39,199 nucleotides of DNA from a bacterium BMS3Abin08. Lineage in GTDB: Bacteria > Nitrospirota > Thermodesulfovibrionia > Thermodesulfovibrionales > JdFR-85. This document shows, piece after piece, positions 36,984 to 37,681 of this stretch. The stretch is from contig BDTA01000084.1 of assembly GCA_002897935.1 (NCBI GenBank), positions 1 to 39,199 on the forward strand, in the 5' to 3' direction. Within the stretch, counting starts at the first letter, position 1. Each line of letters opens with the position of its first letter. The translations under genes were made by a program, and so were the position numbers. Under the pieces are notes generated by a model. That model was given only the letters and a program-made list of their open reading frames with translations. It had not been told where the DNA came from and searched no databases.

Positions 36984-37234
36984 TTAGAATATTCCCGGAA
37001 ACAAAATAAACATAAATTTAACAGATTTGTGCGTTTTTTTGCAATATCAGGGTTTATTCCATCCCGGGTCAATGGGTGCATGAACCCCTGCCCTTTCGCA
37101 AGCAGGGATAAAAAAACCTCTCATGATTCATATTTTCTTCATATTTTTCTTTTATCATAAAAGTCTGACTGAGATTAGGCTTTTACTCCCGACGGGGCGT
37201 ATAAAACTTCTATGGACTGAAAGAGAGGTAGTCT

Positions 37235-37681
37235 ATGGCAAAAAAGAAAAAGGCCGATAAGATCGGCCGGAAGAAACAAAATACATGGATGTGGATTGCA
37301 GGTACCGCTGCAGTGGTCGTTCTTATTCTGTTTGTCTCGGGCAAGATCCCTACCGGCAAGAGCGAGGTTAAGAAGAACTCCTTTACCGTTCAGGGAGGCG
37401 AAACCCGTCCTATCCTCGATCCCTCCCAGTTTACCGGTATGACCCGTTCAGCCTATGCAGCTGCCAAGGCATATCCCCAGGTACTGGACCAGGTTTACTG
37501 TTACTGCTACTGTGATGATCCTCCATTTAACCATAAGAGTCTGAAGAGCTGTTTTGCCGAGACCCACGGAGCCGGGTGACTACTCTGCCAACAGGAGGCC
37601 CTGAGGGCAGCCCAGCTTTATAAACAAGGAAAATCAATCAACGCAATCAAGACAGCAATTGATAGTGAATTTGGGAAATAG
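37235..37681 (+). CDS. PCYCGC-type protein, candidate selenoprotein (in-frame TGA = Sec115)
   Basis: A lysine-rich start and one membrane segment (about 19-35) precede a periplasmic domain of the family named for its PCYCGC motif. Here the motif reads YCYCYC (C89, C91, C93), with C106 further on. The frame meets TGA at 37577-37579, then continues LLCQQEALRAAQLYKQGKS and ends at TAG (37679-37681), giving 148 residues. Relatives have a C-terminal CxxC where this protein has U115-L-L-C118, followed by the same EAL...Y..GKSI..I pattern. A hairpin at 37585-37610 fits a SECIS. AGAGAGGT precedes the ATG. The role is unknown; extracytoplasmic metal binding or thiol redox work is likely. Without Sec decoding the protein would lose its C-terminal third-CxxC region. 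Confidence 0.8.
37585..37610 (+). promoter_or_regulatory. Candidate bacterial SECIS element for the PCYCGC-type protein
   Basis: A two-part stem forms: CTGCC (37585-37589) with GGCAG (37606-37610), an AA/AG internal loop, CAGG (37592-37595) with CCTG (37600-37603), and the apical loop AGGC (37596-37599). The loop begins 17 bases after the TGA and has G in its second position, meeting the bacterial SECIS distance and loop rules. Confidence 0.7.

Follow-up and report, generated by a model that had tools for sequence, protein, structure and literature searches.

A Selenocysteine-Encoding Gene of the Known CYCXC (PCYCGC) Family in a Nitrospirota Bacterium and a Possible CcmH-like Role of Its Product

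The window considered here, a stretch of 39,199 nucleotides from the bacterium BMS3Abin08 (contig BDTA01000084.1), carries a gene (37235–37681, + strand) which, with a probability of about 0.97, truly encodes a selenoprotein and belongs to the known CYCXC (OS_HP4, PF13798) family. The placement of selenocysteine (Sec) at the CxxC motif of the product is strongly supported by three lines of comparative sequence evidence, namely the Cys/Sec exchange in homologues, a hairpin conserved in Sec genes only, and the Sec machinery of the host. The broader explanation, in which Sec decoding is combined with the action of the protein as a CcmH-like extracytoplasmic selenol/thiol oxidoreductase, is in our opinion somewhat better than an even bet. 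CYCXC is not a new selenoprotein family, and the window gene is a new member of a known one; what is added here is that Sec is widely retained in Nitrospirota, that the SECIS hairpin and its register are supported by comparison, that a UxxU variant is seen in one genome, and that a CcmH-like function may be proposed.

The Gene, Its Product and Its Family

The reading frame opens with ATG at 37235, meets an in-frame TGA (37577–37579) after 114 codons and continues for 33 further sense codons to a TAG (37679–37681), which, on re-reading of the sequence, agrees exactly with the first-pass annotation. A probable ribosome-binding site, AGAGAGG, precedes it at 37222–37228, and the read-through product has 148 amino acids. 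Its translation includes a Lys-rich N-terminus followed by a hydrophobic segment of residues 19–36 (37289–37342), a probable membrane anchor, and then the CYCYC motif (37499–37513), in which Cys89 and Cys91 are invariant and Cys93 is at least 90% conserved in alignment A1. His100, Cys106 and His111 (37532–37567) are all invariant in the same alignment. The TGA, read as Sec115 on the basis of the TGA/Cys column in homologues, occupies position 1 of UxxC in the motif HGAGULLC, and Cys118 (37586–37588) occupies position 2, where all homologues have Cys except for one with TGA (L092). Routine annotation would end the protein at the UGA, and the conserved CxxC would be lost. The gene stands by itself, flanked by an aromatic amino acid operon and by atpI, which both lie on the opposite strand. 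It has no functional neighbour, and its own context does not decide its function.

The read-through protein matches PF13798 (PCYCGC) with 35.1 bits (cut-off 25) and NCBIfam NF041379 with 124.7 bits (cut-off 90, positions 1–89 of 90 covered), and both matches span the TGA. The latter model is named OS_HP4_CYCXC, CYCXC family (seleno)protein. A 2026 catalogue of prokaryotic selenoproteins (PMC13188914) lists the CYCXC family protein (hypothetical protein OS_HP4) under PF13798 with a UxxC motif and one Sec and, in its entry for this protein, credits OS_HP4 to Zhang & Gladyshev 2007, from an Olavius algarvensis symbiont; OS_HP4 is also listed in PMC9312934. The statement of the first-pass annotation that no prior description of Sec in this family was known is wrong, since the "(seleno)protein" model and the catalogue entry describe it. 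Its proposal that a PCYCGC-type family can be a selenoprotein is borne out by the exchange, the Sec-only conserved hairpin and the full Sec machinery of the host. A lipoproteome paper of 2026 still files PCYCGC under unknown function, and no published function of the CYCXC/PCYCGC family was found in the literature searched.

The window protein shares with the NF041379 family the Sec at position 1 of UxxC, the CYCxC motif and the existence of Cys homologues, and is new in host and sequence only. PCYCGC proteins of Bacillales and Burkholderiaceae have the same Pfam domain and conserved cysteines, but no in-frame TGA was noted in them, and their identity is 30–37% over part of the protein. No relatives were found in viral contigs, and sequence searches of the PDB, made with the protein and with the alignment, gave no match.

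Exchange of Cysteine and Selenocysteine in the Phylum

The genome search detected the family in 78 of 396 genomes of the phylum. The first-pass annotation had suggested the Cys/Sec exchange at the TGA column as a test, and the exchange is evident: the codon in 83 homologues of the phylum is TGA in 60, a cysteine codon in 22 (TGC 15, TGT 7) and NGA in one, while TAA and TAG are never used. The second position of CxxC is Cys in all but one of these homologues. Among 80 named loci of GTDB species, the column holds TGA in 34, Cys codons in 45 and NGA in one. Judging by record titles, nearly all the TGA genes belong to Nitrospirota, including Magnetobacteriaceae, with one labelled Proteobacteria and one without a phylum name; groundwater "Deltaproteobacteria" and other Nitrospirota supply most of the Cys genes. 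A tree built without the Sec column requires at least four Sec/Cys changes, three of them forced by well-supported branches, within the limits that the few available columns set on such a tree. A sequencing error at the TGA is extremely improbable, since the same codon recurs in dozens of species whose genomes, some of them single-contig, were assembled independently.

Several loci deserve separate mention. In L092 (1862–2317, + strand), identical to L117 (CP070737.1, Nitrospiraceae bin398), both positions of CxxC are TGA, giving UxxU in HAAAUNLUQDEAL, whereas the catalogue (PMC13188914) lists the family with one Sec; the second TGA comes from a single genome and is possibly a read error. A further candidate for UxxU, G397, was rejected because its second TGA is an ordinary stop. 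The key codon of L081 (G111) and L168 (JdFR-88) is NGA, an assembly ambiguity that is probably TGA, and there is another N in the gene; both loci were left out of the Sec count. The match L097/G244 was false, lying opposite an EF-G gene, and L095, considered as a flavoprotein fusion, turned out to be a fragment of PCYCGC that runs on into a distinct YHS/thioredoxin-reductase-like gene.

Selenocysteine Machinery of the Host

The BMS3Abin08 genome encodes SelA (595.8 bits) and SelB (355.7 bits), a tRNA-Sec with anticodon TCA, and SelD (G000:C100:26260-27174, L218), which itself carries one in-frame TGA. SelD with an in-frame TGA is a known type of selenoprotein. A second tRNA-Sec candidate, L010, was not called by ARAGORN. 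In the genomes compared, SelB (counted at E below 1e-80, tally by hand) was present in 54 of 58 with the Sec form against 5 of 18 with Cys forms only (Fisher P = 1e-7, the P values of this work being indicative, as the sequences are related). The four Sec-form genomes without SelB are probably incomplete MAGs. The first-pass annotation had proposed a check for co-occurrence with selB/selC; all four components of the Sec machinery were found in the host, and SelB co-occurs with Sec forms in the genomes compared.

The Hairpin Downstream of the TGA

A bacterial SECIS-like hairpin, conserved in Sec genes only, is located at 37594–37612, with the stem formed by 37594–37601 and 37605–37612 and a 3-nt loop at 37602–37604; the window gene forms six of the eight pairs of this stem. 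Counting the T of TGA as 0, it extends from +17 to +35. In 68 Sec genes, pairing was found in 86% of cells for type A, the kind present in the window, and in 99% for type B (the two types were separated by a simple text pattern, so that a few "A" genes look like B, with the Sec-versus-Cys tests unaffected). Synonymous recoding with the codon usage of the same genes gave only 63% and 66%, respectively, and 300 replicates never exceeded 69% and 72%. In 55 Cys genes, the same hairpin was paired in 47% of cells against 50% expected. The codon of Ala +7 is GCC in 66 of 68 Sec genes and in 19 of 55 Cys genes (indicative P = 8e-15), although upstream Ala codons in the Sec genes are GCC in only 97 of 428 cases. 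These data suggest that the hairpin is conserved beyond coding needs at the level of the whole set, the signal being weak in the window taken alone.

The first-pass annotation had placed a two-step hairpin with an AGGC apical loop 17 bases after the TGA. Such a structure does exist as the minimum free energy fold of the window RNA, but it is its loop and not its stem that begins 17 nt after the TGA. Its stability is unremarkable on its own (z −1.1 against dinucleotide shuffles and 0.16 against synonymous codons), and its register is paired in 80% and 65% in the two Sec groups compared with 86% and 99% for the neighbouring one. It was rejected as the SECIS element because it is less conserved than the neighbouring register 37594–37612.

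The ordinary stability of the window hairpin might be taken in favour of the view that translation really ends at the TGA, the similarity downstream being a remnant in decay or an overlap. This view is nevertheless very improbable: TGA stands at the column in 60 homologues and is never replaced by TAA or TAG, the frame beyond it stays open as far as a conserved C-terminus, the near-invariant Cys118 lies in this tail, and constraint on synonymous codons is confined to Sec genes. Hardly more probable is the reading of UGA as Trp or Cys by near-cognate readthrough, since a full Sec machinery is present, with an in-frame TGA in SelD itself, Cys is the only residue found in exchange at the column, and the SECIS-like hairpin is conserved. 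According to the preferred reading, the UGA would be decoded by SelB and tRNA-Sec, aided by the hairpin directly downstream.

Similarity to CcmH

A thiol-oxidoreductase activity toward apocytochrome c is attributed to CcmH (PMC3601427). In a profile comparison with hhalign, alignment A1 matched CcmH with a probability of 79% and a score of 35.8, the best of 90 decoys reaching 24.5. The CxxC motifs are superimposed and the helix-EI-helix-FG pattern is in register, over 35 columns only and with a 13-residue gap needed. The AlphaFold model of the protein has a pLDDT of 96.8, and its top two PDB folds are CcmH structures, 2kw0 and 2hl7 (E. coli and P. aeruginosa), the similarity being weak (Foldseek E 1.9–2.2, Z 4.7–4.8); the other fold neighbours are mitoribosomal proteins with Z 2.2–2.4. 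Such E values, with Z below 5, could also arise from a common helical arrangement rather than from the three-helix fold of CcmH.

Like CcmH/NrfF (PF03918), the CYCXC protein has a CxxC ahead of a probable helical hairpin that ends in EI...(Y/F)G, and unlike CcmH it has an additional N-terminal CYCYC/His half and Sec at the active-site position. The window protein gave no match to Pfam CcmH (PF03918) at E up to 1, only PF13798 being reported, and the LRCxxC motif of CcmH is absent from it (HGAGULLC), while LRC and VC are invariant among the aligned CcmH sequences. A natural fusion of cytochrome c (CBB3 type), CcmH and PCYCGC, all in Cys form, was observed in L058 (G272:C1:45000-48500, − strand), with E values of 6e-11 for the PF03918 CcmH domain and 1.3e-8 for PCYCGC.

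It may be proposed that the N-terminal helix anchors the protein in the membrane with the Cys/His/Sec-rich domain directed toward the periplasm, and that a CcmH-like helical hairpin (CxxC, helix, turn and a helix ending in FG or YG), in which Sec takes the place of the first Cys, makes up the C-terminal half. The most likely activity would be thiol-disulfide (selenenylsulfide) oxidoreduction, presumably fed by partners of the TlpA, CcdA or DsbD type. A reactive selenol beside cysteine substrates outside the cytoplasm is a suggested benefit of selenium. The CcmH-like function taken separately has, in our estimation, slightly less than an even chance. The first-pass annotation had suggested an extracytoplasmic redox or metal-capturing site; this fits the gene contexts described below and is narrowed here to the hypothesis of a CcmH-like oxidoreductase.

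Gene Neighbourhoods and a Possible Role in Metal Handling

Downstream of 56 Cys loci, many of them cut by contig ends, genes for TPR proteins (35), ResB (31), TlpA (28), CcsA (26), CcdA (24) and glutaredoxin-like proteins (19) were found, and Rnf genes often occur upstream, the Rnf and glutaredoxin names coming partly from sequence reading. The TPR protein matches a CcmI-type TPR model below its cut-off. This set of TPR protein, TlpA and CcdA resembles the neighbours of CcmH, namely CcmI, CcmG and CcdA; the CYCXC family is linked to System II (ResB/CcsA), whereas CcmH belongs to System I. The Cys forms would probably serve System II cytochrome c maturation, and the Sec forms probably a related handling of cysteine or copper in anaerobes. 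The host genome has ResB, and a TlpA-type thioredoxin directly follows the Sec gene in six loci. The more far-reaching idea that CYCXC/PCYCGC is an unrecognised CcmH-type oxidoreductase for System II with a CcmI-like TPR partner, of which Sec-using Nitrospirota carry a selenocysteine version, is rather unlikely.

The neighbours of other members form the basis of a serious alternative, according to which the protein is a periplasmic chaperone or trap of a soft metal (Cu(I) or similar) passing it to a Cus-type RND pump. The metal site would comprise CYCYC, Cys106, His100, His111 and UxxC, with Sec tightening the binding, and six conserved Cys/Sec residues and two His would suit such a site. Downstream of the 36 type B Sec forms, YtkA is encoded in 19 loci, TolC/CusC in 21, CusB in 13 and CusA in 6 (CusA/CzcA being assigned by TIGR00914), with a histidine kinase upstream in 9. 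On Burkholderiaceae plasmids, the genes for an RND pump, a copper-binding protein and DsbD are followed by PCYCGC, and on one of these plasmids a multicopper oxidase gene comes later; a Paenibacillus plasmid copy has genes for a heavy-metal P-type ATPase and for an ArsR regulator in its vicinity. Nevertheless, the context shared by the largest number of Cys forms is that of cytochrome c assembly, together with thioredoxin partners; the Burkholderiaceae contexts include DsbD and TlpA as well, and the CcmH profile and fusion evidence favour redox chemistry. The metal role is regarded as tentative and less probable than the CcmH-like redox function. The two roles are compatible, since it is in the periplasm that damage by copper and thiol redox chemistry come together. 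Taken together, the CcmH-like module, System II and Cus-type operons make "hypothetical protein OS_HP4" a testable redox/metal factor.

Particular arrangements of neighbouring genes were also noted. In L124, L129, L132, L141 and other loci, the Cys-form PCYCGC gene lies between the Rnf operon and the TPR-ResB-CcsA-TlpA-CcdA-glutaredoxin operon. In L105, L106 and L108, window-type Sec genes come directly after DsrMKJOP, which lies at roughly −5.5 to −0.5 kb relative to the Sec codon; DsrK, DsrJ, DsrO and DsrP were confirmed by NCBIfam, and in L110, on a short contig, a gene of the DsrP cluster precedes the Sec gene. DsrMKJOP is a sulfate-reduction operon, and DsrJ is a c-type cytochrome. Finally, a small conserved exported protein is encoded upstream of Sec genes (for example, at −640 to −316 in L079 and −685 to −364 in L121, relative to the Sec codon). 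It is located between a histidine kinase and the Sec gene, belongs to no Pfam family and is characterised by the motifs TPYGxxCPxCxxYGxC, GRFxxAxV and TGRxRSIY, in this order.
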